Shown here: positions 28,425-56,321 of the stretch, piece by piece
How positions within the stretch are numbered: the stretch's first letter is position 1
Layout: every line of letters starts with the position of its first letter
DNA from: Nautilus pompilius
Lineage: Eukaryota > Mollusca > Cephalopoda > Nautilida > Nautilidae
Reading direction: 5' to 3'
Assembly: GCA_018389105.1 (NCBI GenBank)
Contig: JACATO010000598.1
Span: 496,001-560,000, forward strand
DNA length: 64,000 nucleotides
The notes under the pieces: model-generated
Databases searched by the model: none
Seen by the model: only the letters and a program-made list of their open reading frames with translations
Told to the model about the DNA's origin: nothing
Translations under genes and position numbers: made by a program

Positions 28425-29027
28425 TCAGTTGTGGCCAGTCTGCAGCCTGACTGTGAGAACCTGCTCAGGCTTGGAGAGCAGGTGATAAGGGTCATTTCCA
28501 TTGTATTGTGGGTGTTGCTGCAGCCACTTGTTTTGTTGCTTTACCTTAATGATAGTCTTGATTTCTTTGAAGGTGGTGGACCTGTTATTCTGTTCCTTAT
28601 TAGTGTCCTCCTTCACAAGAGTGTCTGCAGCTTCATTGCCTAGTATGTTGCAGTGGGAGGGGACCCACTGCAGAACAACTGTGTGGGTTCTGCACAGAGG
28701 GACTAGGGTGGATGACAGGTCATTCAGTTCTTTGTCTTTGGCAGTATCTAAAGCCTGCAGAACTGACTTCACATCACTGAAGAACACAACATTGTTGGTG
28801 GAGAATGGACTGTGTTCTATGTGGGCTGCATCTGTCTTGAGCGCTACTGCTTCAGCTTTGAAGTTAGTGGAAAAAAGGCCGGTATCAAGGGAGATATGTT
28901 CTTCTGTACCTCCTGGATACCTGATGTAGATTCCAGCACCATTATTTCTAACGGCCTGGTGAGCAGACCCGTCAGTGTACACATGAGTCCAGTTGTGTTG
29001 AGGGTAGAAGTTGTGGATGTGTTCCAT
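28425..29027 (-). pseudogene. Retrotransposon RNase H domain
   Basis: A 200-residue open stretch with the RNase H signatures in order: YTDGSA (first Asp), FKAEAVAL (Glu), FFSDVKSVL (second Asp), then WVPSHCNILGNEAADTL (the His and last Asp region). It follows the reverse transcriptase of the same element and ends in a KWLQQHP...LRTGHN-type tail. It is part of the element 28090-31880 and is broken from the preceding part by frame shifts. Confidence 0.85.
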
Positions 29028-29615
29028 GGTGAGGGACTTCTACAGCATCACTCTGAGAATCTTTCTTTCCAATGCCAGGAACATTGCATTGCATCTTGGA
29101 TCTTCCAACATCCCTCCAGCATGGGTTCCCAAGGTACTGGGAGATAGATATCTTTGGGTTCATGTTCCAGGATATCATGGTGTTTCCTTTCCAAAACCCT
29201 TAACTGGTGGATGAAGCTTTCTCTTTTCAGTCTTTTGTTGATTGACACAGTCTGTCTTTCATTGGGTGGTTTGGTAGTCATTTGAATTTGGCTGCTTGGG
29301 TGAGAAGTTTGGAGTCCCTTCTGTCTTCCATAGACTCAAGACCTGTGATCGTTTCCAACTCCTGGATAGGGGTTGACCACATGGCGCCACTGATGATTCT
29401 GGCCACCTGGTTCTGCATTTTGCTGACTCTGTTGAAATTTGATTTGGCAGAAGTGCCCCATGCTGTCACTCCATATTCAAGAGCTGGTCTGATGCTGCCC
29501 ACATATATCTTTTTCAGGATTGCTGCATCTGCACCCCATGTGCCAGTTAGCTTCTTCATGAGCACCAACTGCAGCTGTGCTCTGGCTTCGACTTTCTTTG
29601 TTGTTTCCAAGTGAG

Positions 29616-30578
29616 TCACATGTCGAAGGTCATGCCAAGGTATGTGGAGGTGTTGTCAGCCTGCAGTGACTTTCTGTTGAGCTTGAGGTTGGCCTTCAGT
29701 TCCTTTAGAGAGTAACTAAAGATTGTGTAAGTGGTCTTCCTGGAGTTGATGGTGATGAGCCATTTTGTCCGGCCCTCGAGTACCTTCAGCGCCTCTTGTA
29801 TCCTGTAGTTGGCAGTGGTGATATGTTCTTTTGAGCACCAGAGTTCAAGATCGTCAGCATAGATGGCTCCGTGGACATTCTTTGGAAGGTCTTTGACGAT
29901 GTCATTGATGAAGACTAGGAATAGGGTTGGGCTGAGGACTCCACCTTGGGGAACTCCGTTTTTCAGTGTCATCTTATGGCTGTACTGTCTACATACATGG
30001 ACTCTTGCTTTCCTGCTGTGCAAGTACTGGCAGATCCACTGGATTATACAAATCACACCACTCTTCTGGAGTTTCAGCTTCAGCCCATCCTTCCAGATCT
30101 TGTCAAAAGCCTTCTCCACGTCAATCCATACTGTCAGGGTATGTTTCTTGTCCTGAAAACCATCCTTGATCATCTGGGTGCTGTACACCACCTGGTCCTC
30201 AGTCGAACAATGCTGCCTGAAACCAGCCTGCTCTGGAGAAATAATGTTGTTTTTCTCCAGATGCCAAGTGAGCCTGATGTTGATCATCCAATCCATGAGT
30301 TTGCCAATGCAGCTAGTGAGACTGATGGGTCTGTAGCAGTACACCTTTACTTGGACTTTTCCTTTCTTGTGTATTGCAACCATATTAGCTTCTTGCCAGA
30401 TTTGTGGAACATGGCCAGTCTTCCAGCTGTTGTTGAAGATTTTCAGTAGTTGAGTTTTTGCCTTTGTGCATAGATGTAGAAGCATCTCATTGGTGATTTT
30501 GTCTGGCCCTGGAGATTTCTGTTTATGCAAGGCTTTCATGGCATCTGCCAGTTCCTGAATGTTGAAAGGTTTGGTCAT
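29616..30578 (-). pseudogene. Retrotransposon reverse transcriptase domain
   Basis: A 320-residue open stretch. Fingers and palm motifs are seen in order: KSPGPDKITNEML, YRPISLTSCIGKLMD, ISPEQAGFR, WIDVEKAFDKIW, KNGVPQGGVLSPTLF and AIYADDLELWC (the YADD catalytic box), then the YLGMTFD thumb entry. The frame is interrupted at 29616 and resumes at 29619 in another frame with YVGSIRPALEYGVTAWG. The catalytic residues themselves are intact. Confidence 0.9.
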
Positions 30579-31427
30579 GTGTTCTTCAAGCTGATGCTCA
30601 TTGGAGGTTCTCTCCTCCTGTATCTGAGCCTGCCTGCCTTTAGGTACAGTGATGTTGCTGACTTCCTCATAACTATCTATGAAAAGGTTGCCAGCCTTCT
30701 TGTCAGCAACTCTTGGCCTTGCGAGGTGGCAGTTGGCACTGCCTTTGTGTCTTCACCATTCATGGCTTTATGGCTTTCGTCAGCTTCCACAGTTTGCTAC
30801 CATCCCTATCTAAGTTTAACTTCTCTGTCTTCTCCCTCTAGTTTGATCTTGCTGCTTGGAGGTAGGTTCTCCTGTACTTGGCAGTGGCTACTTTCAGGGT
30901 GATGTTGTTGTCAACAGAAGGGTTCTCCTCTACTTCCTGTCTGCTACTGCTGACTTCATCCTCAAGCTCCTGAAGCTCTTTCATCCAATAGGGCCTGTAG
31001 TTCTTTTGCGTGCACCTCATGGCATTGTCTCTGAAGCAGCTTTCAGGATAGCCTGGTTGAAGTTCCGAGTGACCCCGGTTGATGTTCAGGTCATCTCTTG
31101 AGCTCCCTATAGTAAAGGTCTGTGATGCTGGCAAACATGTTCCAGTCTGCCTTGTAGTTCCACCTGGGGAACGATGTAGAGTTCTGTAGCCTGTACTGTA
31201 GGTTGATGGTCATCTTCACTGGCCTGTGATCACTGCCTCCCAACTGGCTCAGTACTCCTCTGATGATCGTCTTGGAGAGGTCATCAGTTGCAAAGGCAAG
31301 GTCTGAGGTAGAGGTTGACAGCCATCTGCGTGAGAAAAAGGTGGGTGGGTCTTCTGGATCATTCAGCAGAACCAGTCAGGGATCAGTCTGCCAGTCCTCC
31401 ACTTCCTCTCCTCTTCTGTCCGTCTCC

Positions 31428-31880
31428 TCATAACCCCCAACAGGTAGAGTGGCTGTTAAAGTCTCCAACAACCAGGCAGTTCTCAGTAAGTAGAATTTCC
31501 AAATACTGCAAGGAAAGTTCTTTGCCTGGGGGACAGTACAGGTTGTAGATGGTGATGACCCTGGACTTCAGCTTGCTGATTGGTGTCCACTCTGATTTCT
31601 TGTGCTGGTATGTCATTCTTGATGAGCAGATGAGCATCAGCACTCCTCCCTTGTGTCTTCCTACTCTGTCTAGCCTGAAGGTTTGGTATCCTTTAATGGT
31701 GAATTGATGGTTTAAGTTCAGGTGTGTCTCTTGGATACAGGCCACATCAATATTGTCGGTATACAGTCTTTCAGTGAGTGTGGGGTTTCCACATGAAAAC
31801 ATCTCATCTTGAGTCCCACTACAAACTCCAAAGTTGAAGATTGTGAATGAGTGGGATAAGCTTGTTTGTGTAAAAAGTGA
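31428..31880 (-). pseudogene. Retrotransposon AP-endonuclease domain
   Basis: From about 31850 the frame reads FNFGVCSGTQDEM and then IDVACIQETHLN (the QET catalytic glutamate), GGVLMLI, ITIYNLYCPPG and LVVGDFNSHSTCWG (the GDFN box). These are the usual landmarks of the endonuclease of non-LTR elements. The next part (31430-31140) is out of frame and covers the TSDL/HxP region. Confidence 0.8.
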
Positions 31881-31899
31881 GGGCCAAAGGCTTATTAGA

Positions 31900-34800
31900 A
31901 AGCACAGAAAATGCTAGCTTATAGGGGGTGTCTAAGCGCATTCTTTAAGGAGTTATTTTCTCAAAATATCAAGAGTAAAATGCCATGTATTTTAAGTATT
32001 TATTCAGCAGCATATTCTTAACATCACAGTTACTAACTTCTCATTCTTTTTAATTTGTTTCTACTGTGCTTTCTTCTACTGGCCTGTATTGTAAATAGGG
32101 GTCATTTAAATCTATCTTGATGGTAATAAAGGAGCTCATGGTTCCATCAGTTTTTAGGTTTGTCCTGAAACATGTCTTGTTCTGCATTGCTGTGAGCCAA
32201 CACTAGAGCTGACTTTGCCACTTTACTAAGATTCTCAAGTCTGACAGTCACTGGCTGTGATGTAAATAATATCCATGCAGAAAAAGCAATTTGACAGTGT
32301 TCATCAACTCATACAGTTGCAAGTTGTTTGCCTTCCTAGGGCAAATTTTAATCTCATTAGCTGGTAGTCAGTCAACTCATACCAAAGCTCTCCTCTTTTA
32401 TGGTGAAGTGGAAAAATATTCTTTCTCAAGCTTTACAAGTATATTAGTAACAACCTTCACCCACCCATCACTACTACCACCATTAAACTATAGTTAGGAT
32501 CAGTTGTTTCACTTTCCATATAAAAATTTTGTTCACTGTTATACAAAAAATGTGACCTGATCAAAATCAGCTTTTCCAAACAAATTGTGTATTCTTGAAG
32601 GTCTCATCATACGATGAGAGGTTCTAATGCATACATGTTACAGCTCAAACGCAGAATTAGCATGTAGATATGTGGAACGTTGTAGCTTGTCCCTCATATA
32701 TTACGCCATCCCGGAAATACTTGTTCAGTTTCATTCTTGTAATAATGCTGACAAACAGTTGTTGATTCACTCTAGTTGGGTGTGATTGGAAAGCATTGTC
32801 TGATGGATCTGATTTCTGTAATAGTTTGGTAAAATCTGTTAAATGTAGTAAGCTCTGCTTGCCAGAAGAGCATGCATATTTCTATCATTGAATTTTAAGA
32901 TCACTTCTTTTGGGGCTCAATGTGATAAGACTGAAGGGCTATACTGTTTCAATATGTTCTATTGTACTTTCCAAACTAAGCTACCTAATATATACTTATG
33001 TAATTATGTCTCTACTGAACACCACAAAATTCAGTGAGGTTTTTCTTAGATGAGTGCTCAAACCAGTAGAAAATGTCAACACAAGTCATCAAACCTAAGT
33101 TGTACTTTGTTTTGATACCAAATTTTCTTTCAGAGGTGGAGCATTTGCATCATTATTCAGTTTGTTTTTGTGTAAACTGAAGAATAAATCTTGGTAATAT
33201 CATTATCAGCAAACATGTCTGAACATTAAACCCAAATGGTCGGACATGCTAATGGGTAAGTTATAAAATTTGTGGTGAAAACCTGTTTTTTGTTGTATTG
33301 TAAGCCATTGAGCTCAAATTTACTATATCTAGGTTTAGAGTAAGTTGGTTTAACAGTGCTGTTTCCCATCTTGGATGGTCTTCACCATCTTTATGAGAAA
33401 TCTTGTCTCTCTCACCTTGATGCCTGACATTTTCTTGCAAACAATATAATAAAATGATGTACAGTTTCCTGGAGCTTCACATGAAAACACGTGATATTTG
33501 GCTGTCCAATCTTTTTGGAAGAATGAACTGTACTTTTTAGCACCTGAAAACTTTGTATAAAACTTACTTTCTGGACTATCCACCATGATTACAAAAAACA
33601 CAAAGATGTGTGAACATCCATGTTACTTGGTTAATCTCACCTTAACACCACATGGTTCACCTCATTCAACTACTGTTCAGTGGCTAGCAGACTTCAATTT
33701 TGTAACAAAGATACATTAACTAGTCAGCTAGCCCATCCCACTTACCTCACTGAACACAGCAGACCAGATATGAAATAAAGCTAAGAATGAAGCTAACAAA
33801 TATATTTTATGCATCATTTATCATCAGCATACAATGCCGCTTGCATCTTTTACTTTTCTTCACAAGTTTTTATACTAAGACTAGCTGCCACATTCTCTTT
33901 AACTGTCTACAGGAAATGATATACCAACTACTGTAGCTTTTATTGTCCTATATATACATCTAATCTTGTGTAGCGAAGATTTACAATTAAGACAGTCATC
34001 TCTCTGCAGTTTATGTATGCTAGACTCCACAAGTGCAAGGAGATTAACAAGTTAAACCTAACAAAATTCTTAAATTTTATCAAATATTTTAAAATTCTGA
34101 TGGAATAAAACTGGATAAATATTTAGCTGTTATGAATTTAAAACCAGTCGAAATTTTTTTAAAGTTTGTTTGTTTTTTTTAAAGATTCAGATGTACGAAA
34201 ACTGAAACAGTCTTCTATCCATTGATAGTTTAAAATGTATTCCCACAATCCAGCCCTGGAAGCTGACAGTTCATGGAAAATATGACTGATAATACTTACA
34301 GCTTAACAGCCGGAAGACCAGATTCTACCTGTATTTAGATCTTGGTGTGTGATGGGGTAAGTTTTTGTATATATTGTATCTTTGACAATGGGTTTGGTTA
34401 CTTCAGAGTGGTTCAGTCCTATCTTCCCAGCATTGTTCTTGCATGGCCACAGTTAGTCCTTGGTTCTTTGTGGTCAAACTGCTTCACTCTGGATGCGAAC
34501 TCTTTCTGGTCTGCTACAGTGTTTCTCACAAGGTCTTCTCCCATGTTCTATGTTTATATGCCCACAATAGTGGCATCTGGGACCTCATCATTCAGAGTTG
34601 ACACCAGACCTGGGTTCCAAAATTTTTCACTTGCACCTGTTGTGTGTGTATTGGGCATTCTCACTAGTTGAAACTGTCTAGATGGCCTGCCAACTTCAGG
34701 GAGGAACTAATTAATGACTTTGCTCACAAGTCCACCCTAGCCATCCTTAGGAGTAAAGCTAATTATGGATTTTTTGTCCCCCAATCTTTCTCAGTGTGTG

Positions 34801-37981: not shown

Positions 37982-40900
37982 TTAAACTGGTAAAGCCATC
38001 ATCTCTCTTAAATCATCCTCGGGGTGTTTAATGTCAACAGATGAGATACTGTAGTTTTTGGCAAGAATGTCCATAACGTTTGGAGTGATGAATGCTGGCA
38101 ATATGGGCCCCAGACGGATGTTTTTTATTCCCAGATGTAAAAGGGACAACAGAACTGCAACAGCCTTCTGTTCAAACCAGGAGAGCACTATAGAAATGGG
38201 AAGGGAATTGATATCAGTCTTCAAAGCTCCAGCAAGAGCTTGTGCCAGAACAACTGCACCGTAGCTGTCGTTGCACTGGCCCATGTCCAGCAGGCGTGGC
38301 AGGCCAGTCTGTCCTAGCACACCATGCTCAAGAGTATTGAAGCGATACTTTGCACAGCCCATTGTCAGCATGAGGGTCTCTGGTGGAAGTATTTTTACAA
38401 GCTCAGTGTAATAATTTCGCTTATTCTCCGATCCATCACAGCCTCCAACAACAAATATCCTCTTCAGACTCCCATTGTTCATGGCTTCAAGTACCTTTCA
38501 AAGAAAAACAAATTAGTCAACATGGGAAGAGATTGGCACAATAACCCATTTGTTCCTTATAATGCTTTTAAATGGTAATATATAGTTGCTAATTTTCAGT
38601 GAAGCTAAAGAATAGGTGTTGTAATAATGAAACCTTAAAATTTCTAAGGAGCCTAGGAAAATAATACTTTGGGTTACTGGTCACTCACACTAACACACAA
38701 AATTTAGCTGCCATTGTTGTTGATTCCACCTATGAGGGAAATTTAGGAACTATCAGAAATGGCCTGATAGAGATTATTCTTATCTACGTGTGCCCATGAG
38801 TGAATATTTTATTATTAAATCTCTGTACTGAAGAACATGAGAAACTAGACAGTAAACTTAATCAAGACTCATCAAGGACCAAACTCACTGAGAGCATGAA
38901 GTCACAGCATGTCACATGCCATCCTATCACCCAAATGGATTTTCAAATTTGCTAAACCAAAAATGAATGCATGGTATACCCCTTTTTAATGTGTGTCATT
39001 AATAATAGACTTCAAAATTTGTCCTTACTTTATCTGCATTGTTTAATATAGTCTCATGGCCAAAACCGACAGTAAGTGTCTTGGATGGAAGGCGGCAGTC
39101 CTCCTTTGTAAACCCCTTGTTTGCCTTAGCCGTATCAATGATCAGCTTCATGTCATTTTGGTTATTTACATCCAGGTGCTTGACACCAGCGAAGCCAGTT
39201 TCATTAAGAGTAAAAATCCGATCCTTGTAACTTTTCAAGGGTTCAATCATACAGTTGGTTGTTATGATGATAGGCCCAGGAAAAGCTGAAAATTCAAACT
39301 TTTGTAATTGCCAGGCTCTTCCATAATGACCAGCAAGATTCTAGATAAATAAAAAATGTTTTAAAAACTCAAAAGAAATAAAACACTTTAGTTCATTTTC
39401 TACAAAGTCTTACCTCCATCAATTTCAACAAAACCTAATTCAGTCAGGTTTCAATTCAGACAACAGTCAAATCCTAGAATTTTTTAAATAGTAGATTTAT
39501 ATATATGTATGTGCGTGCACACGAATGTGCACAGAGTTCAAAAATTATATGCCTACCATACAAAAACGCTGTTATCGTTCTTTTCAACACTTTATTGTTA
39601 ATGAAAATACATTATTCCAGCAAAATAAGTATGAATAAATCTGATAAACCATTAATTATGAGATGCTATCAATTCAAGCTTCTTTCTTCAAAATTGCCAC
39701 ATTTCGTGTGGATAACCACCGCGCACACTTTTGGTGACATGTTCAGTAACGTCTCAGAACATTGTCTTATAGATAATTCCCCCATTCCTCCTGTAAGTAG
39801 TTCTATAGCTGACTGACACTGGTTTAACCTTTTTCCTTGACTATTCACTAAATAGGCTTGTTAACACATAGCAGTAATCAAGATAGGTTCCATAGACCCA
39901 TGAAAACAAGTAAAATATTAATATTAATGTGCTGTTAACCTGAAAAAGCATTACAGAAACTTAATAATATCAATTTTAAAAGTCACTGTATTATTAGTAA
40001 TTTTCATTTTAATCTTCCTGCTGTGAAGTTCCTGACTTTGACTCCTTGGAAGAGGAAAGCATCAAATGTGAGTTGCCTCACTTTCCTCTTATGGTAGCAC
40101 AGACTTTCTTCATAGCAGGTGGCACATCTTGGTTCACAATCTTTCTGACAGCAGAGATGAGCTCCCAATTGTCATCATGCTGCTCCAAGTCCAGACCTGA
40201 ATTTATAAGAGCTAGTCACTCCTGAAGAACTTTGGTGGTAAGGACATTTCCAGCTGAAGCCTCATCAGCAACTAGCCATTTAGCCTGGGTGTCATGCTGA
40301 TCTAACTACTGCAGCTCCATGTTGATCAGAGGCTCTCTGCGAGACTGCAAAAGCTCATCCACATTCTCCATACTAACCTCTTCAAATCCATCAGTGTTGG
40401 CCAACAGTGTGATGTCATTGGTGACTGCTGACATGCTCTCCTCAAATCCAGAAAAATCATTGATGATGTCTGACCACAATTTCTGCTTCACACAGTTCAT
40501 ACAATTAGAACTGACTTCTTGCCAAGACTCATTGATGTTAATGATAGCATTCATTATGTTATATGCCTTCCACCAGTCCCTCGTGTATTGTCTTTAACCA
40601 TTTGACTAATGAAATGATAGGTAGTAAGCCTTGAAGGCAGCAATGGCACCCTAGTTCATGGACTGCAGCAGGGAAGTTGGTTTGAGTGGAAAAAAACAAG
40701 ACTTCAACTGGTAAGTCAGTTTGAAGTATCAAGGATTTGTGGGTAGCCTAGAGCATTGTCCAGGAGTTCAAATCAATTTTGCTCACAATTCTTGACAGTT
40801 GGGAAGAAACAATGGATGAATCAATTGTTAAAAACATCCATAGTTACCAAAGTCTTATAGCTTGACTGCCAGATGATGGGTAGCTGTTCCTTTGTGTCCC

Positions 40901-43900
40901 CCTTCATAGCTCATGGTGTCTCAGGATAGTACACAAGAAGAGGCTATAGCCTGCTTCAGGTCACCTGAAGTAGTGTGAGGCAGTCTCTTTGTGTTTTAAA
41001 GCCAGAGGAACATCATTCTTCCTTCAATATAAACATGTGCAGCAGCATCCTCTTCCAAAAAAAGGTCCTGTCTCAATCCACATTAAAAACAGGGTTTGGA
41101 GAGTAATTGCCATTTTTCAGAATTGTCTTAAATGTTTCAAAGAACTCACCAGCTGCCTTTTTATCTGCACTTGCAGCTTTGCCAATTATGCAGATTAGAG
41201 CTGTGCTTAAAGAAATCAAACCACCCTTGGTTGGCCATAAATGTACCTGTGGTGGATTCCCCTCCTTCCTGATTCTTCAGGTCATCATCAAATAAAGTTT
41301 TTTTTTTTTCCTTTGACAGAATCACTGCCTGACTCACAGCATGGCACACTGGGTTCATATCTTCTACCAAGACTGCTAAAAGTCTCTCCATTTTCACCAT
41401 AATGGTGCTTCTCATACAAATTAATTTAGTAACATTGACTGGAGTGGCAGACTGGCCTGCTGCTGAGATTCTGCCATTGCAGGCAATTCCTTAAGTCAGA
41501 ATTCACGCTCAACTGCAGTACTGCCTAGTCCCAATACCAAATGCCTAAAAACTTTCAATTTAAAACCAAGACTGATGCTCTTACACTTTGTTTTTGGTTC
41601 ACCTTCTGCACTGTCACTTGCTAGGCGTTTCGGACCCATGTTTAGATAAATTTGGCCACATTTTATCACTTAAAATGGGTCACAATAATTGAGCAAAGTA
41701 GAGCTAACCAATGTAATGGCTGAATTCCTCAAAGGAGAGTGACTGAGAATGAATTCGAGTTGAGAAACAGTTCAAGCTAACAATTATTCAAATTAGTAAC
41801 TATATTGGATAAACGTGATGTTTTATGGATGGACTAAAGTTAATATTCAAAGAAATAACTTGTTGGTTCATAATTATGCAAAAATCTTAAGTGATATCAT
41901 CATCACAATTAATGATTTGCATTCTGATACTACATGATATTTTGCATGGCTTTTTCTAGAATAATGAATTTTTCATTAACAATAATAAGTTCAAAAGATA
42001 GACAACTAGTTTTTTAATGAGGGTTCATAATTTTGAACACCAGAGGCTATGTGTATTTGTATCTTTATAAACTTTTCTTAAGTTTTTATTTTAAAATTTC
42101 AAAGTAAGGAAGTAGGATAGTTAGAATGGCAAAGCTGCGGTCAGATGACTGGAATTCTTTCACCAGCTACTACGGAGATATGAAATACCAATGAAATGAC
42201 TAGAAAAACCATTTCCATGTGAACCATGTTATAAAAGATTTTGTGAACTTACTTTGTATTTGCGTATCTCTGGGTATCCATGAGCGGGCAGTAATTCGCC
42301 ATGAGTGTAAACATTAATGCCAGTGTCCTCGGTTGCCTTGAGGATTTGATGAAGGTCAAAGATATCATGGCCTGATACCAGTATCCCCTGGAAGCCAAAC
42401 AGAAGTAAAACTAGTCCTTTTCAGAAATGCTTTCAGTGACACAAAACCATGAATCAGACACAAGGCCAATGGCAGATCACAAACAGATTTAAAGTTTGTT
42501 TAACTGTGACAATTACTAAGATCTAACTACTCTAAGACTCAAAAATTTTCAAACTCTTTACTTTAAAATTCCTGAAAAATTGAGAAGATAATAAACACTT
42601 GTTTATTTTGGACCTAATCACGAAATTATTAAATACTTATGAATCTGATACAGTAACATACCTTATTACTATTAACCTAATCAACATCCAACCTCTCAAC
42701 TCAGAAATGCTAGCTCACAGATGATTTCTTTTATTTTTGCCTTTCTAGATTTATCTAAACCCGTTAGTTAGACTGCTATGGCCAGGACTATCTTGGTTCA
42801 GCAAATCTACTTGGTGTAGTTTCTTTTTGCCAGTCAAGTGAGTTTCCTCCAGTTGCCTTCTATATCTAAAAATGAAATTTTCTATTTGGGATGCAAGTGG
42901 TAGCTTTGAGAGCTCGTCACATCTAATCCCCATCCCCTCCGTGATTAGTAACTTTAGTAACTTTCAAATATAAAAATGTCCCCTTTGGGATTTGGATTTG
43001 GAAAAATATTTTTAAAAAAGTCTTTCCATGCAAGATTTCCCAGAATGAATTGTGCTCAGCTGTTTAAGAATAGATACAAATATAGAAAGATAAAGCAGCA
43101 GAAAGTTTCTAAAATTTATTTGAAGTCCCTGTTGCCAAAAAAGTGCACATCCACTATTTTTTTTAAGAATATTTATACTCTCCACTATCTGATTTGACAA
43201 AATATTATTGGCTGTGCCATCATCTATACTCTAGGTAGAACAGATTGCTACCCTGTAAACCCTATCTATGATAGAATACTCCAGGTGAACAAAATATTCT
43301 GCCAGCCTGGACTGCTCTATCCATTAAATGGGGTCATCAGGACAGCAAACACAATAGTCAAACAGCATACAATACTAATCACCTTGCCAACCTTTGGTCC
43401 ATCATGCACCTGTACTGGAGTTCGATCCCCATAACATTTTCGATGACCAGCATCGAGAAGTGATAAAACCAGCAGATTCACCTCACCCACTTTCAAGGCC
43501 AATTTAAGATTGGTGCCCAGGTCTTTGCGTTCTTCAACTGGTCCACTCTCCAAAAAATCAAAGGCCTACAAAAACAAAATTCAGTAGCTACAAATAGAAT
43601 GGTCAATCACAGAAAAGATTCTCAGGTGCCAAAAAAAAAAAAAAAATTACATCAAAACAATCCAGATTGTACAATGATTCTTTATTTTTTCATCTTATAA
43701 TAAAATGTTCAAAAAGATGTATTTATGACCCCTCCCCCATTTTCTGATTAGGACTTGTTCTTGAGAACTCACCTTGTACACAAAATGTGAAATTTCCTTG
43801 TCCCTCTGACCAAGACGAACTGCATGCAGAGCATAGCTGCACATGCCCTTCAACCCATATACAATCATCTCTCGCACACCGTTTACATCGGCACCATACG

Positions 43901-46900
43901 TGGACAGACTTGAATGCACCCCATGCATTTTACCTACAACACATCAACTTTGTGAAGATTTATAAATGAAAATTCTACAAGTCAGACATTATACAGATTT
44001 TTTTTTTATTCAGAGGCTATCTTTTATACTTGTCCAAATGCATAATCAACTGTACACTTTTCTGTTGTTGGCTTGTTGTTTTAACAGTCTTGCTGCTTAA
44101 TGTTTAACTATTGAACACCAGGAAATACCTTTCCTGACACACAGTTGGTCATTAAACATAATGAACCACATTATAAATGCACTTTACACATTACGCGCAT
44201 CACCAGATATCATTTAGTCTGTACAATCTTCCATCGGGATCAAACATACATGCACCTTAAAGCACTAAGTTCTCATGGGCGTACTTAAAGTGGGGTACTT
44301 TAAAATATTGAATGAGACTCCTCCATATCAGCCTGGTAAATTTACTGGACGTACATGTCAGTTCTAAAATAGGGTGACATCAAGACTACATAGGTCCCAT
44401 GCTGAAGACATGTTAGCTCATGTCACATGGATGAATTGCTGCAGAAGCTTATATGTTGCATATCCTTTGAGTACATTTTCCTATCGAGATACCATAGCAG
44501 TGTTGTTAGATACAAAGTGTATCACGCCAGTCCTAACTATGGCAGTGTTTGGTCCAGTATTCTCTGTACATCATCAGCACACCCCATCACAAATATCAAC
44601 AATCTTGATGAAGAAATTGGGTTGATCCAAGAAGGGGTTCAATCAGTAGAGATGAGGCGAATGCTTATCAATCTGCCTAATACCATTTAAATGTCATCTC
44701 ATGGTATCTTAACTTACTGGTTGCTATATATGTTACATAGCCTTCCATTGTGAATGTCATGAGATAAATTTCACAGACTTGTTCATATAAGGAGAGAAAC
44801 ATGCCAAATAAAGTTCTATGGATTTCTATTCAGTAAGTGAACAGTCATGTGACAATTTATCAAGTATAGCAGCTTCAACACTTCCCTTTCTTAATCTGCA
44901 CATATCTCGTCTTTACTGGTTACTTTGAAATATTTTCAGCCAACCTTTTTCCTCCCTTCAAAAAAAATTCTATAAAATAAAAAAATTATGCCCTTATCCC
45001 TTTAAATGGTTTTTATTTTAACATGTCTTCAAATAGGGAGCTTTCGTGTGAATAGACCAACATGCATGCAAATAATAATAATTGAAGTTAACTGGCACCT
45101 ATACATAATATAGCATTTAACTCCTTCCCTGCCAGAGTCAGAGATCTCCAATCAATGATCGCCACCCACTAATTGCCAAAGTTGGAGATCATCGATCTAA
45201 CAGTTTTCGTGACACTTGATAGATGGCTGGCCAGCAGCACCAGATATTGTTGGTGAATGCTCTTGGGGAAATTCTGAATCATCTGTCAATGGAGGAGTGT
45301 ATTTGTTGATGGAAATGACCTCAAAATCTTTGGCAGGGAAAGAGTTAATGTCACAATCAAATTTTTTTTTTTTAAATTTTTCAAAGAAGAGTTAATTAGG
45401 TATTAGAAAAAATCTACAATCTTAAAATAAATATTAAGTCAAAAAAAAGGTACAATTATTTAGGTAACTGTTAATCGCTGTGCAGCATGATTCTCCTTTT
45501 GTAGTTTTGTTTTTTTGTTGTTTGAGGGTGCAATTGAATTTTTACCTTGATTTTAGAGGTTTTAGATCTGTGTCAGATTGCTGAAAAGGTGCAAGTTGTT
45601 GCTACTGATAATTCAGTAACATTACCTCATTTACCTCTAGAAAAGTAATAGAGAGCTTACCAAATATAGATTATATTGCCAGCCTCTGAGCTTCACATCC
45701 TTGTAGTCATCAAGAAAAAATAAATATACATTCACCTTGCTCAGCAAGAGATTCTACATCAGTAACAGAGCCACTGGGAAGCCATGTTGAAGGGCCATCA
45801 ACAAAAGTGTCTGGCTGAACACCAGCTGAAGCGCAGGCTTTTTCGTAAGCATTTTTGAGTTCTTCTCTATGCTTCAGAGCATCTCTGATAAAATCAGAGA
45901 ATCGACCGGGGTCAAAGTTCACATTAGTCAGTGTGCTGAAACAGCAATTGTTAAGTCAGTGTAAACATGCACAGCGGAACTCTACACCAAAGTTTCTAAG
46001 ACAGTTTTTCTTCCATAAAATAAGAAATTAAACCTTTAAATTGCACATATGCCTGTGAACTGAAGATACCCCTCCCTTAATACATTTAAACAACCCATGT
46101 TTCTTAAAGGAGTGTCTGGTCAAATCAGGTTTTTATGTCCATTTATAAATTCTATTTTAGCATACATCAAATAATTATCAACATTTTAATCCCTTAAACA
46201 CCTTAAACATAAGCAGCTTGGCATTTATTGAATGACACAGTCTTGAAAATATGACCTATCCTAAATGATCTTTTCATTACTTGTACAAAATGATGGTAAT
46301 GCAATCAAAATTCCAAACATCAGCTACCAGTAAAATGTAAAAACTGGAATTACCTACAGTTCATAAGAAAATCAAAGAAATACAGTGGAGGTAAACATAT
46401 GTGTGTATGTGTCAAGTATCTATAATAAAGCAGTCTATGCAGTAGATTACCATCTAACCTCCATGTTTTGTGTCCCTTTGTAATTAATTTATTAATTTTT
46501 TTATTTTGTTTTAAATATTTCCAAAGTTGGTACTCATTAATCTTATAGTTAAATTTCAAAATTAAAGCTTAAACAAATAGAATTTACTGAAAGGCAGAGC
46601 AGGGAGGGAATGCTGTTTATGGAGCAGTGTGACCCAGATATTGCTCCATAGAACAGGTGAGGGGTGGGGTAGACTGGCCAAAGCTGACTTCCTTCAAATC
46701 AGTGGGAGCCAGGAATGGCAAGGGTCCACACCAAACACTCTTGCCTAGGAGCACTTTTATCTGGGTAAACATACTGCTAGAATCTCACCACCCCCAACCA
46801 ACCCTAACCATGGCAGAGCCACTACTCAACCAGTCTAATCCCAGAGCAACAGCTTCATCTTGCTTTTTTCTTTAACTGAATTATTTTATCATCTCATTTA

Positions 46901-47218
46901 TCTTAGGCCTCAAATTTTATCTCCCTCCCAAATCAGGCAGAGCAGTGCCTCTGCCGCAGAGTCGGCCAAAAGGGTTTGGATTTAGGAGGAATTTCTGCTG
47001 CTGCAGCAATACCTAAAGAGAGCTCCGAACACAAAGTCGTCTACGTGTTGTGGCACAGCGACACCAAGCTCCAATCCTCTTTTCGCAAAAACACTTATTC
47101 CCTTAAGATTGTAGAGAAGCAGGTCCTGCAGTGCTGCCACCTGGGGACTTTTACCGCAGACTCCAACGACAGTGCAGCCAGTTCTACCCTTTGTCTGCTC
47201 ACACTGAAAACAAAACAT
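37982..47218 (-). CDS. Hybrid cluster protein (HCP / hydroxylamine reductase / prismane protein), 7 coding exons
   Basis: Exons on the minus strand: 47218-47013 (exon opens at 47220), 45935-45736, 43933-43773, 43565-43383, 42387-42253, 39340-39029 and 38494-37982. All are GT-AG and phase-exact, giving 1,710 nt, or 569 residues plus TAA; the Desulfovibrio protein is about 550. The N-terminus MFCFQCEQT...GC....GVC carries Cys3, Cys6, Cys15 and Cys21 (C-x2-C-x8-C-x5-C), the class I proximal 4Fe-4S pattern. Hybrid-cluster ligands are all present: His257 (SGHD), Glu281 (HGE), Cys325 (TTNC), Cys418 (GGCDG), Cys446 (GCAKYRF), Cys473 (GQCND) and Glu507 (WFEQKA). HCPs hold a 4Fe-4O-2S-type cluster; they reduce hydroxylamine in vitro and serve as nitric oxide reductases or S-nitrosylases in bacteria. 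The start is fixed by homology: MFCFQC is the family's usual N-terminus and sits 2 nt inside an acceptor, so the upstream exon is probably untranslated and the protein probably cytosolic. Codon use and introns are host-like. The gene looks intact and functional. Confidence 0.95.
40020..41650 (-). pseudogene. Tigger1-like transposase fossil in an HCP intron
   Basis: The minus strand begins [13 protein letters not shown] (41638 downwards) and continues with [32 protein letters not shown] (the CENP-B-type binding half), then FNVD followed by a stop where the first DDE aspartate box stands, and later LLDNALGYP (like 'LIDNAPGHP'), with the acidic C-terminal extension near 40550-40300. Many stops and frameshifts. 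It is a different and older-looking copy than the Tigger at 24486-27006. It fills most of the HCP intron 39341-42252, in the same orientation as the gene. Confidence 0.8.
45121..45344. mobile_element. TTAA-flanked piggyBac-type MITE in an HCP intron
   Basis: TTAA at 45117-45120 and 45345-45348 flanks a 224-bp element with inverted ends CTCCTTCCCTGCCAGAG and the reverse complement of CTCTTTCCCTGCCAAAG (15 of 17 match). It has no coding capacity. The ends resemble those of the element at 4164-4645 (CCCTTTCCTGTCGG). It lies in the HCP intron 43934-45735. Confidence 0.65.
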
Positions 47219-47459
47219 GGCTGGGGTGGGAAGAGGAAAAAAAAAATATTTATTATTTAGCAAACATATTTAAAAAAAAAAGTCTTTATGAAGTAAAAGA
47301 CTGCAGTTTTGTTTTTGATTTAAAAGTTTGTGTTGAAAATTAAGGATTCTAGATTGATGGATTGGAAGATGGGGATGAATGGTGCATCTTGGGAACCAAT
47401 CTGAAGTATGCATTAGTTATAGACATGCTAAGAAAACCTCTTCTCTCTGCAGACATTTC

Positions 47460-48960
47460 GGACTAGCAGCTTCCGGGAAGTTGGCGCAGGGAGGCGGGAG
47501 ATGCTTTCCATTTATAGCAGAAATAAGCCTCCCTGGTGGCTGTTGTCAGAAGTGTGCCGGGAAACCTCTGGCGAGATTATGGCACCCGAAGGAAAAGGGC
47601 AACAACAAAGGAATTCCGCCCGTACACGGGTCGTTCGACGTAAGGTTCCAGAAGCTACATTAAGCTCACGAAGAGGGGACTGGGCCAGCTGAGGACGACG
47701 AACGGATCGAAACTGAGAACGTTCTGCTTAATGGGAGAACTTTTGACATCGGAATTCTTAGAAGATTCTTCGTCACGGGGTTTGATTCCCTTGACCCACG
47801 GTTTGAGCTGACCTTTGGCTCGTGGGGTGTTGGCGCTATGGCATTTTAAAGGATCCCGGCCCCGCCCAAACTGTTCCCTCTTCCCGTGAAGTCGGTGACA
47901 GGCAGAAACGTAAACAGATTCGGGATCACTGGTGTTATCACCGTTCCGCGCTGGACGAAAGGTGTCTGAATATCAATTATCACCTGGAAAAACAACAATG
48001 TTCACAAACCTTCACCTTTATCCGAAGCAGGGGCATAATGTCTCGAGGGCGTGGCACTCCTGCCGTGGAGGAGGAATGATGATGGGTAACGCTCGACAGC
48101 AGCACATCGAATTCTGTTCGTGGAGGAGGAGATAAACCGGAGCATGATGGAGAGAGAGAGAGTCGACAGCAGCCGGTGGCGTCGTTGGGTTTTCCTCCAA
48201 GAGCGAGCAGGGAGGGGGCACGACTGATGACTGACCTACCTGTTCATTCGCACTGAGCAACATCCGTCAAGCTAAACTGTTATAGCAGGATCTGACGCAC
48301 GCGGGTGAGGGAGGGGTTGTGGGGTCAGCGGTAAACGATGAACCCGGGTCCCCGACTAACAATAACTCGCTTGTTTTCGCGACCTCGCTGCGGCTCTGTT
48401 GCCATGGGATACGGCGAGTGGTTGTTGTTTTCTCTCTACTCTCGGGCTTCGGCTCCGCCAGCGAATGGCGTCAGCGGACTAATTCCGGGACAAACTTCCT
48501 ATCTTCAAAATGAAATAAGGGAGAAAAGTTTCTTCCATCAGGATGACGCACACCGTTGCGCCAGGTGGGAGTAGCGTTAATTAGGACACCTGCCGACGAT
48601 GACGCAGAGACGGGGGAACACGACGCTCGCGGGCAGCGGCACTCGAGCGACGGACCCGTGTCGGGTACCTCACCGGGCGGGTGTGGACACAGGAGGGAGG
48701 GGGTCGGGGTCAACGCGGTGGGGTAGGCGAACCTGTTGGTGCCCTGGGCTTTTTTGACAGCCCGTTAGGGGAGTTTGTGCGAAGCTTCTGTCCAGCCCCA
48801 AAAATCTTTGCCGAGCCTAATCCATCTGACCGAGAAATATATCTGGAGGAGGAGAATATGGTGTTTCCCTGACCGACAAAATTAAAGGGAGATCGACTGA
48901 AAATGCGACCAGCTCTTTGATGGATCCCTAGATGTTCTTCAGCACCCAACCTTGGTGGTT
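47460..48960 (-). promoter_or_regulatory. CpG-rich region, probable HCP promoter and 5' untranslated exon
   Basis: A 1.5-kb CpG- and GC-rich patch directly upstream of the first HCP coding exon, against an AT-rich background. A minus-strand ATG at 48263 leads to a good donor (GAACAG|GTAGGT, near 48239), but joining it to the HCP exon would be out of frame with HCP. If used, it would be a short upstream ORF rather than an N-terminal extension. No coding exon of another gene was recognised here, though a divergent plus-strand transcript cannot be excluded. Confidence 0.45.
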
Positions 48961-49350
48961 TTTGTGGTGGGAAAAACCTGTGCTTATTGTAGAAGATTGG
49001 GGAGTTTGTGACACCAGCACACAGTAGTCAAACAGTTGCAGCGCTTGTCCGCAACACTGTTAATGAATATTCACTTGTCTGGAAGGATGCGGCGAACTCT
49101 GACCCTGATTTTTACCATGCAGAGTACACACAGGATGTAAAGTTCAATGAAAAACCAGAATTAATTTGTCTGTCTTGTCCAGCCCATCTGCTGCATGCTG
49201 CTCTCTCTCTCTCTCTCTCATGAAGCAGGTTCCAAAAATGGCTGATTTTTAAAAGTTTCTAATTGATACTAGTGCATTTTAAAGCATTCCAATACAGCAA
49301 AGTCTCTTCTTTAATGTTTGCCAGATCATGTTTGAATGCAGCATTCCTAT

Positions 49351-50674
49351 TGCCATTGTACCGCAAGGTGGTCAGTCCAGTGTGTATTTGGCTGCATATT
49401 GCCATTGTACCGCAAGGTGGTCAGTCCAGTGTGTATTTGGCTGCATATTGCCATTGTACCGCAAGGTGGTCAGTCCAGTGTGTATTTGGCTGCATATTGC
49501 CATTGTACCGCAAGGTGGTCAGTCCAGTGTGTATTTGGCTGCATATTGCCATTGTACCGCAAGGTGGTCAGTCCAGTGGTATTGGCTGCATATTGCCATT
49601 GTACCGCAAGGTGGTCAGTCCAGTGTGTATTTGGCTGCATATTGCCATTGTACCGCAAGGTGGTCAGTCCAGTGTGTATTTGGCTGCATATTGCCATTGT
49701 ACCGCAAGGTGGTCAGTCCAGTGTGTATTTGGCTGCATATTGCCATTGTACCGCAAGGTGGCCAGTCCAGTGTGTATTTGGCTGCATATTGCCATTGTAC
49801 CGCAAGGTGGTCAGTCCAGTGTGTGTATTTGGCTGCATATTGCCATTGTACCGCAAGGTGGTCAGTCCAGTGTGTATTTGGCTGCATATTGCCATTGTAC
49901 CGCAAGGTGGTCAGTCCAGTGTGTATTTGGCTGCATATTGCCATTGTACCGCAAGGTGGTCAGTCCAGTGTGTATTTGGCTGCATATTGCCATTGTACCG
50001 CAAGGTGGTCAGTCCAGTGTGTATTTGGCTGCATATTGCCATTGTACCGCAAGGTGGTCAGTCCAGTGTGTATTTGGCTGCATATTGCCATTGTACCGCA
50101 AGGTGGTCAGTCCAGTGTGTATTTGGCTGCATATTGCCATTGTACCGCAAGGTGGTCAGTCCAGTGTGTATTGGCTGCATATTGCCATTGTACCGCAAGG
50201 TGGTCAGTCCAGTGTGTATTTGGCTGCATATTGCCATTGTACCGCAAGGTGGCCAGTCCAGTGTGTATTGGCTGCATTTGCCATTGTACCGCAAGGTGGT
50301 CAGTCCAGTGTGTATTTGGCTGCATATTGCCATTGTACCGCAAGGTGGTCAGTCCAGTGTGTATTTGGCTGCATATTGCCATGTACCGCAAGGTGGTCAG
50401 TCCAGTGTGTATTTGCTGCATATTGCCATTGTACCGCAAGGTGGTCAGTCCAGTGTGTTTTGGCTGCATATGCCATTGTACCGCAAGGTGGTCAGTCCAG
50501 TGTATATTTGGCTGCATATTGCCATTGTACCACAAGGTGGTCGGTCCAGTGTGTATTTGGCTGCATATTGCCATTGTACCACAAGGTGGTCGGTCCAGTG
50601 TGTATTTGGCTGCATATTGCTATTGTACCGCAAGGTGGTCAGTCCAGTGTGTATTTGGCTGCATATTGCCATTC
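49351..50674. repeat. 27-copy tandem array of a 49-bp unit
   Basis: The unit begins CATATTGCCATTGTACCGCA, continues AGGTGGTCAGTCCAGTGTGT and ends ATTTGGCTG. About 27 copies occur. Most are identical; a few have 1-3-bp deletions, one has an extra GT, and the last few carry ACCACAAGGTGGTCGG variants. Because 49 is one more than a multiple of three and the unit has no stop in any plus frame, all three plus frames stay open for 449-490 codons, each spelling the same 49-residue super-repeat. The minus strand is closed about every third copy. I treat the ORFs as a by-product of the repeat, not as genes. The array lies about 400 bp beyond the CpG-rich region upstream of HCP. Confidence 0.95.
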
Positions 50675-53508: not shown

Positions 53509-56321
53509 CAGGGGTCCAAGGGTCGTCAAATGGGGTCCAAGGGACCACCTGGGGGTTGATGAGGAATTCCAGGGAGTCGATGACAGCCGAGGGGGTCGAA
53601 TGGGGGTCGGGGGTCTTAAGTTTGAAATTGAATCGATATTCGTGGTATCAGTTTCGTGTGCCAGTTTGCGTGGTGTAATTTACCTCCCACTTACGTGATG
53701 AATGACTCAACAGAAAGCTGGGCGCTGTTGGTGATGACCCAACAGAAAGCAAACAGCTGTCAGAAATGATGTGTGCCTTAGGCCCTGGTGTTGGCTCGAA
53801 TTTCTGCGTATGCAGCATGTCTGGCGAGAGCATGAGTGACTGAGAGGCTGTGTGATTGGATGCTGACTCACCCTGCCTTTCCCCCCCCCCCCTGTGCGCC
53901 GACCTTTGTACATGAAGCTTTGAAGGAACTCGGTTATTCCTCTGCGTGCAAAAGACAGAGCGTGTTCCGACGAGGTGTTCACTTTTCCTTACACGCATGT
54001 AGACTTGCTACTACAACAATAAAGGAGTTCTCGATACTGGCCAACGACACAACAGAAATATTTTGGGTAAGCTTTACATTTTGTATAAATTTAAGTTACC
54101 ACGAATAGTTTTTTATAAGAGGTGTACTAGGCTATATCCTGGCGTAGCTCAGGATATACGTGTACCTGTATTAAGGGATTACAACGATTTCAGCTGCATT
54201 GTCCTTTAAAACCTTTTAAGGCTAACTAAGTCATATTGCAATAATTTGAAGTCTTTACTGCCTTTTAATAAGACATTTCTTTTTTTCAGAATCATGTCAG
54301 ATGCTAAAAGAAAGTGAAGACAGTACAATCAAGAATATTTGAAATTGGGATTCATTACTTCACCAGAAAATGAATCAATTCCTATGTGCCTACTTTGCGA
54401 AAAGTCTTTCAGCAATGACAGCATGAAACCGTCTTAGATGAAAGAACACTTGCAAAGGATTCATAGTGACAAAGAAAGTAAAGATCTCGATTATTTCAAA
54501 ACTCTAAAAGCGAAATTCAACAGTAGACCAAGCTTGAAAACATTTTTCAAGCCGTATGCAAAAGCAGATCTTGAAGGAGGTCAGAAAGCCTCCTACAAAA
54601 TAGCCCTTAATATTGCGAAGAAGGGAAAGCCTCACTCCATTGGCGAGGAAGTGATTATTCCAGCTCTTGTGGAGGTTATTGAAAATGTAATGAAGGCTAA
54701 TCCTGACTCTGTTTTAAAGTCTGTGCCATTGAGTGCAAGTAACGTAAAACGCCGCATTGACGAGATGGCTATCAATGTTGAAAAAACATTGGTATCAGAG
54801 CTGCAGTCTTTGAAGTTTTCACTTCAATTGGATGAATCAACATTTGGCAGTTCCTGTGTATTGATGACATATGTCAGGTATTTTAGTCAGAGTCTCAAGC
54901 ATGTTATTGACGAGTTCTTGTTTGCAAAATATCTAGAAGGCGATTCGAAAGGGGACACTATTTTCAGATGCCTGAAAGAGCATTTGGATGAACATGACAT
55001 CAGTCTTGAGAATATTACTGCCGTTGCAACCGATGGTGCACCAGTCAGCTTGCTCAAGCAGCATGTTCCAAATGTGCTTACTATTCACTGCATATTGCAC
55101 CGAAACCATCTTGTGGCCAAGAAGCTCAGTGGTGAGCTGCACCAAGCATTGATGATTTGTGTAAAAGCAATCAATAAGATAAAAGCGCACCCCTCAACTC
55201 AAGATTGTTTGCAAAATTGTGAGAGGAAAATGATGAAACTGCCAACCAGTTACTCCACACAGGTGAGGTGGTTGTCGGGGGGGGGGGGGGGGGGGGTGAA
55301 AGCTTGCAACGGCTTGTCGACATCTTCGATTCCACAGTAGAATTTCTGAGTGAAGTGGCTCCTACACTGTGTGATGAATTTAAGAACTGTGAAAAGCATT
55401 TGCTTTATTTGGCAGACATTTATTGCAAATTTAATGAGATCGAAAAACGTCTGCAGGGCAAGGATGTAACAATAATTCAGGCACGCACGGTACTCATGGG
55501 TTTCCAAGTGAAACTTGGATTGTTTGACAATTCATTGGAGAGAAGAGATTTTAAATATTTCTCAAATTTGATGCACTTCTCCCTGAACACAAGACAAAAT
55601 ATTTCAGACGATGATATCGAGATCTTCACCAATCACTTGCGGAAACTTCATGACGATTTTTGTGCTCGGTTTTAAAACTTTGAGAACATGAAAATACCGG
55701 CATGGATAGTGACACCCTTTGACATCAAATTCGAAAATTTGAATATGAAACCAGAGCTTAAATACAAACTCTCTGAATTAAGTGTGGACATTGCGGTGAA
55801 AACCATTTTTGAACATAAGTATCAAGTACCCAAACCTTACAGCGGCAGCTGAGCCATTCCTTCTGGCATTTCCCAGCTCTTACATGGTGGAAGCTAGCTT
55901 CAGTCATGCAAATGCAATCCTCAGTAAGCAGAGGAATCACCTGAACCTGGAAGAACGAGGTGATTTGAGACTGAAGCTGACTAACATTCAACCTGACATA
56001 AATGCTTTGATTTATGATCACCAAGTTCATCCCTCACATTGATGTAATGAATTTTAATAAAGAAGTATTCCAGCAAAGAAATGCATTTTCCAAGTTTTCT
56101 AACTTTAAAAACAATAAAAAATGAAAGGTAATTATAGTTAAAATTAATGTAAATGTTCATTATCTTCCTAAATATAAGCTTAGAATTTCTTAACTTTTAG
56201 TTGATAATTTAATTTCAGTATGACTTTTTAAAATATGAAAATACTTTAAATGAGGGGGGTCGCTGAGGAAGGACGAGACACAAGAGGGGGGTCTCTGGTC
56301 AAAAAAGTTTGACGGCCCCTG
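53509..56321 (+). mobile_element. hAT transposon (ZBED5-like) with perfect 8-bp target duplication
   Basis: GTGTAAAC at 53501-53508 is repeated exactly at 56322-56329. Inside, the left end is CAGGGGTCC...GGGTCGTCAAA and the right end is TTTGACGGCCCCTG, so the termini are inverted CAGGGG. The total is 2,813 bp. Subterminal GGGGTCC/GGGGTCG repeats occur at both ends. An 8-bp duplication with CAGGG ends is diagnostic of the hAT superfamily. Its own poly(A) signal AATAAA is at 56056-56061. The perfect duplication suggests a fairly recent insertion, although the transposase is broken. Confidence 0.95.
54294..56040 (+). pseudogene. ZBED5-like hAT transposase, disrupted
   Basis: The reading frame starts at ATG 54294, just after a TTTTTTTCAG acceptor-like site, which fits the 5' intron usual in this subfamily. 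Order: a BED-finger part (IPMCLLCEKSF ... HLQRIHSDKES), the long RNase H-like catalytic region (SLQLDESTF; ITAVATDGAP, with the family's 'TDGAP' box; TIHCILHRNHLVAKKL), and a C-terminal dimerisation part (MVEASFSHANAILSKQRN, 55885 onwards). Breaks: TGA soon after the start (where CGA is expected), TAG at 54435-54437, a frameshift at an 18-G run near 55277-55295, and a TAA at the end of the 55268-55675 frame. Both early stops could be C-to-T changes. Probably dead. Confidence 0.85.

Follow-up and report, generated by a model that had tools for sequence, protein, structure and literature searches.

An intact, spliced hybrid cluster protein gene in Nautilus pompilius, with a candidate mitochondrial presequence

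We describe an intact, intron-split gene for a hybrid cluster protein (HCP), an iron-sulphur enzyme known chiefly from microbes that avoid oxygen, in the cephalopod Nautilus pompilius, on the minus strand of a 64,000-nucleotide stretch of contig JACATO010000598.1 (hereafter the window). The gene almost certainly belongs to the animal nuclear genome, and its product is very probably a functional HCP carrying both iron-sulphur clusters. A candidate presequence makes a mitochondrial location of this protein likely. The three claims taken jointly, namely an animal gene for a functional and mitochondrial HCP, form the reading that we favour with moderate confidence on the strength of the sequence.

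Results

Structure of the HCP Gene

An independent reconstruction of the gene gave seven minus-strand exons between 47218 and 37982, which join into 1710 nucleotides encoding 569 amino acids and a stop codon with no internal stop. All six introns of this core gene have GT-AG ends, and the seven exons and 569 residues without frame conflict that had been described in an initial annotation of the window are thus borne out. Exon 1 (47013–47220), which includes the core ATG at 47218, encodes the cubane cysteines C3, C6, C15 and C21. Exons 2 (45736–45935), 3 (43773–43933) and 4 (43383–43565) continue the rebuilt spliced frame, exon 5 (42253–42387) carries the hybrid-cluster ligands H257 and E281, and exon 6 (39029–39340) carries C325. 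The remaining ligands are found in exon 7 (37982–38494, stop codon included), namely C418 at the persulphide position, C446, C473 and E507. On a crude score, the donor of exon 1 (TTTAG/GTATTG) is weak, at -0.57 versus 4.2 to 8.1 for the other five internal donors. Despite this weakness, the residues across the junction align with those of E. coli Hcp.

A Likely First Exon and the Question of Location

The gene had been called complete in the initial annotation, and this holds for the 569-residue core, but a likely upstream exon for a presequence was overlooked. A splice acceptor (CCCCAG) sits two bases 5′ of the core ATG, and for this reason an upstream exon is likely. The probable first coding exon, recognized by its ATG, open frame and in-frame join, lies at 48016–48145 on the minus strand and would encode a 43-residue presequence of the mitochondrial type. 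Its phase-1 donor (AAAG/GTGAAG, score 3.31) joins the CC-ATG of exon 1 in phase, adding MLRFISSSTNRIRCAAVERYPSSFLLHGRSATPSRHYAPASDK and one alanine to give a predicted protein of 613 amino acids. The presequence contains six arginines, one lysine and two acidic residues, and its R-H-Y-A-P stretch presumably resembles a presequence cleavage site.

Alternatively, the same intact animal HCP could be cytosolic and translated from the ATG at 47218, with the upstream exon untranslated or unused and its frame open by chance. The core ATG does give the start position of bacterial HCPs (MFCFQCEQ), and the presequence has no amphipathic excess, since its helical moment was equalled or exceeded in a fraction of 0.37 of 2000 shuffled versions. 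Moreover, under criteria that were set after the exon had been seen, presequence-like exons also appeared in two controls. They were present at a lax donor cut-off in three of 42 blocks of 3 kb, both strands included, and in 54 of 500 random sequences matched to the neighbour-base composition of the 2080 bases upstream. With a donor score of at least 3 the latter count was 16, so chance produces such an exon in about 3% of cases. The three positive blocks all lie within 47.5–49.3 kb, a GC-rich region, and on either strand, which indicates that composition helps such exons to arise; only the exon at 48145–48016 has a donor score of at least 3 there. Because of the composition-matched control, we slightly lowered our confidence in the mitochondrial step. 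However, within 3 kb upstream, every phase-1 candidate whose donor is fair begins at one and the same ATG, that of the exon at 48145–48016. A CpG-rich, promoter-like block (48001–49000) also extends over and upstream of this exon, with a CpG observed/expected ratio of 0.94 where the median of the window is 0.25, ranking third among 1-kb blocks. A cytosolic enzyme that starts at the core ATG is on this evidence rather unlikely, and a mitochondrial location by way of the candidate presequence is still the probable one.

Motifs of the hypoxia type (RCGTG) are rarer than chance upstream, with one in 1 kb where 3.98 are expected. A 49-bp tandem repeat (49348–50673; 27 copies with 97% matches) lies about 1.2 kb beyond the likely first exon on its upstream side, and the long open frames to which it gives rise on either strand are spurious.

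Family, Class and Conservation of the Protein

The 613-residue form matched Pfam PF03063 with an E value of 2.6e-141 over 511 of 513 profile positions. Two HCP equivalog models of NCBIfam were matched with 679.5 bits (NF003658, cut-off 367) and 651.5 bits (TIGR01703, cut-off 360.8), and the NCBIfam model for CO dehydrogenase stayed far under its own cut-off (40 versus 478 bits). A search of the PDB returned 35 matched sequences, the top seven of which are HCPs or hydroxylamine reductases. When the protein is aligned with Desulfovibrio vulgaris HCP and the letters at the ligand positions of the latter are checked, all 11 cluster ligands are present. These comprise the four cysteines of the N-terminal cubane (4/4) and the one histidine, two glutamates and four cysteines of the hybrid cluster (7/7), so the claim that every known iron-sulphur ligand is kept stands.

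The cubane motif is CX2CX8CX5C, and the same spacing occurs in 66 of 80 relatives, these being the best 80 of at least 567 confirmed. Class II HCPs have the spacing CX2CX11CX6C, and spacings of 11 and 6 were found in nine of the same best 80 relatives. A reduced N-terminal domain, by which class III is recognized, is not seen in the 569-residue core, which aligns over its full length with both the E. coli and D. vulgaris proteins. Under the definition of classes by insertion in the cubane motif, as given in PMC10210160, the sequence places the Nautilus protein in class I, since it lacks the four-residue insertion of class II. As a separate observation, core residue 296 (exon 6) is asparagine here and histidine in all 82 other HCPs compared.

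It is improbable that the gene is decaying or silent, with the enzyme no longer made. Decay would be consistent with the weak donor of exon 1 and with the alteration of five residues in the 82 columns that are invariant across 82 other aligned sequences, although 77 of these columns are kept and no ligand is among the five. Nevertheless, 569 codons have remained open and 11 of 11 ligands have been retained at about 43–50% identity to bacterial HCPs, and this combination suggests long purifying selection. We therefore prefer the reading in which a working enzyme with both clusters is still made.

The Locus Is Part of an Animal Genome

Our search of the 727.6 Mb assembly found matches to the HCP family at one locus only (three stretches), on a contig of 1,204,706 bases. 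Intron 5 contains a multi-copy repeat (stretch searched, 40050–41650) that is pogo/Tigger-like by eye only and whose longest open frame has no Pfam match. The repeat has at least 67 matching stretches including itself, and is present on at least 36 other contigs; both counts are lower bounds that rest on the 40 candidates scored out of 59. Other copies longer than 1 kb are 68–74% identical, and hence the insertion is old. The flanks of the gene carry a Mos1-type HTH, a Tc5-type DNA-binding domain, a reverse transcriptase, an endonuclease piece and an RNase H. Pieces of a non-LTR retrotransposon (endonuclease, reverse transcriptase and RNase H) are found in separate open frames at 28425–31913 on the minus strand. 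At 54438–55675 on the plus strand, open frames look like a hAT-type transposase to the eye, and Pfam gave nothing above its cut-off for them. Elsewhere in the window, no Pfam family reached its curated cut-off with any of ten long open frames, two of which had weak matches below it, and none identifies a neighbouring animal gene.

The assembly also contains 33 tyrosinase-type stretches, including two hemocyanin-like arrays (C557:779675-791468 and C1362:511660-522919), each seven units long, which represent either two genes or two haplotypes. The hemocyanin of Nautilus and octopods has seven units and no eighth, while that of gastropods has eight, and the arrays indicate a mollusc of the cephalopod type. 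Two of the 14 units, both from the array on C557, were tested against the PDB, where their hits fall in sequential order along molluscan-type hemocyanins. The fifth unit matches residues 2117–2310 of 6r83, which we take to be squid hemocyanin, and residues 1697–1892 of 3j32, and the sixth unit matches residues 2536–2722 and 2117–2304, respectively. COX1 gave 117 matches over the assembly, many of them with stops, which corresponds to abundant nuclear copies of mitochondrial DNA. Of two COX1-like nuclear stretches, one is open under the invertebrate mitochondrial code; the other, in the frame that was tried, is not.

Bacterial or protist contamination, or misassembly of foreign DNA onto an animal contig, is very unlikely, for although HCPs are typical of microbes and the matches at 49% are bacterial, the gene has six GT-AG introns, a genome-wide repeat in intron 5 and mobile elements on its flanks within a 1.2 Mb contig, the exon-by-exon search found no match to the pyruvate:ferredoxin oxidoreductase (POR) that a contaminating anaerobe might bring, and identity to prokaryotes reaches 49% at most among the matches listed from a scan of 84,980 species with one genome each. 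Over alignment columns, the highest identity to a prokaryotic relative is 50% among the best 80 of at least 567 relatives. The initial annotation had proposed an intact HCP in an animal genome and had named a contaminant contig or misassembly as one way in which this proposal could fail. The proposal is supported by the introns, ligands, family models, intron 5 repeat and hemocyanin arrays, and such a failure is very unlikely given a repeat common to other contigs and the length of the contig.

Phylogenetic Position

One tree combined the Nautilus protein with 80 bacterial relatives and two sequences from the PDB, 83 rows in all, and a second left out E. coli (82 rows). The relatives are the best 80 of at least 567 confirmed and were retrieved by patterns derived from the query, so the set leans toward look-alikes. 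The Nautilus branch is long (1.71 to 1.95 changes per column); it joins E. coli in one tree and D. vulgaris in the other, with a long-branch warning in both. This branch changes place with sampling, and the gene may have been either retained or acquired; we claim no donor lineage. One scan of viral contigs for a possible carrier gave three pattern matches, none of them a relative. For unicellular eukaryotes, a review reports an alphaproteobacterial origin of algal HCPs, and a 2006 study argues for several transfers of HCP into protists.

Metabolic Context in the Genome

The initial annotation inferred from the HCP a pathway for reactive nitrogen or for hypoxia or anaerobiosis, which goes beyond what the sequences show. 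Neither the flavodiiron ODP domain nor POR had a match in the genome in an exon-by-exon search, which a heavily split gene could escape. Nitric oxide synthase, itself a split gene, was still detected by the search, with 28 stretches spread over four loci; C31 holds two of these loci, and C2026 and C2003 one each. We count their presence in favour of our reading. The two loci on C31 lie about 37 kb apart and are either real duplicates or assembly copies. All five stretches that match alternative oxidase lie on a single contig, and three have internal stops.

Discussion

If the mitochondrial reading is correct, the message would start with the upstream exon, encoding a cleavable presequence by which the enzyme would be imported, and the mitochondrial iron-sulphur machinery would then load the [4Fe-4S] cubane and the hybrid 4Fe cluster. 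Characterised relatives suggest how such an enzyme might work. A general donor, either ferredoxin or an NAD(P)H-linked flavoenzyme, would pass electrons to the N-terminal cubane and from there to the hybrid cluster, which would reduce nitric oxide or hydroxylamine at low oxygen. The removal of these compounds could protect respiratory and iron-sulphur enzymes. By analogy with class I HCPs, the persulphide cysteine, here C418, may form on oxidation. In those proteins the N-terminal cubane receives the electrons and hands them on to the hybrid cluster, and the persulphide cysteine arises on oxidation, according to PMC10210160. The same paper describes no known reductase or electron donor for class I HCPs and suggests a general donor because the gene stands alone.

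Our best guess for the role of the Nautilus enzyme is, by analogy, the reduction of nitric oxide or hydroxylamine in mitochondria at low oxygen, and we consider the case for it evenly balanced. More tentatively, some animals, among molluscs and perhaps annelids, may possess a class I HCP in their mitochondria, where it would clear nitric oxide under oxygen starvation by means of ordinary animal electron carriers. With an intact, spliced and possibly mitochondrial HCP, an animal lineage would be able to reduce nitric oxide or hydroxylamine independently of oxygen, which would be an unrecognised anaerobic step in animals. A link between tolerance of hypoxia, nitric oxide and mitochondria also becomes open to test. 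A practical warning is that reads of animal HCPs may have been thrown out as contamination.

Earlier traces of HCP in lophotrochozoans exist in print. The authors of a Riftia gill cDNA annotated as 'hydroxylamine reductase' (EF648468) suspected possible contamination, and a 'hydroxylamine reductase' family occupies one line in a family list for the Manila clam; neither passage gives gene structure, ligands or targeting. In the mostly open-access literature on animal HCPs, consulted in extracts, we met no account of the gene structure, ligands or presequence of an animal HCP. Hence, the description of this system as under-described is fair in that animal HCPs are little described in these sources, but not in the sense of being wholly unseen. 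If the more tentative reading above is true, Riftia-type HCP cDNAs that were suspected as contamination would be the animals' own.

Among unicellular eukaryotes, HCPs are found in Chlamydomonas (HCP1-4), diplomonads, Entamoeba and Trichomonas, which we compared by description; one of the four Chlamydomonas proteins has been proposed to be mitochondrial. The class II E. coli Hcp (7de4), which acts with Hcr, shares the family and ligands and is the top PDB match by E value, with 43.3% identity (235/543), whereas the Nautilus protein is without the insertion in the cubane motif. With the class I proteins of D. vulgaris (1e2u) and Methanothermococcus (8cnr), it has in common the CX2CX8CX5C motif, 11 of 11 ligands, a full-length fold as judged by sequence and a stand-alone gene. 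Identity to D. vulgaris HCP is 43.2% (234/542), and the Nautilus core is about 18 residues longer. Unlike those of class I relatives, however, the Nautilus gene is spliced, nuclear and animal, with a likely presequence. Its family is a known one, and the host is unexpected.
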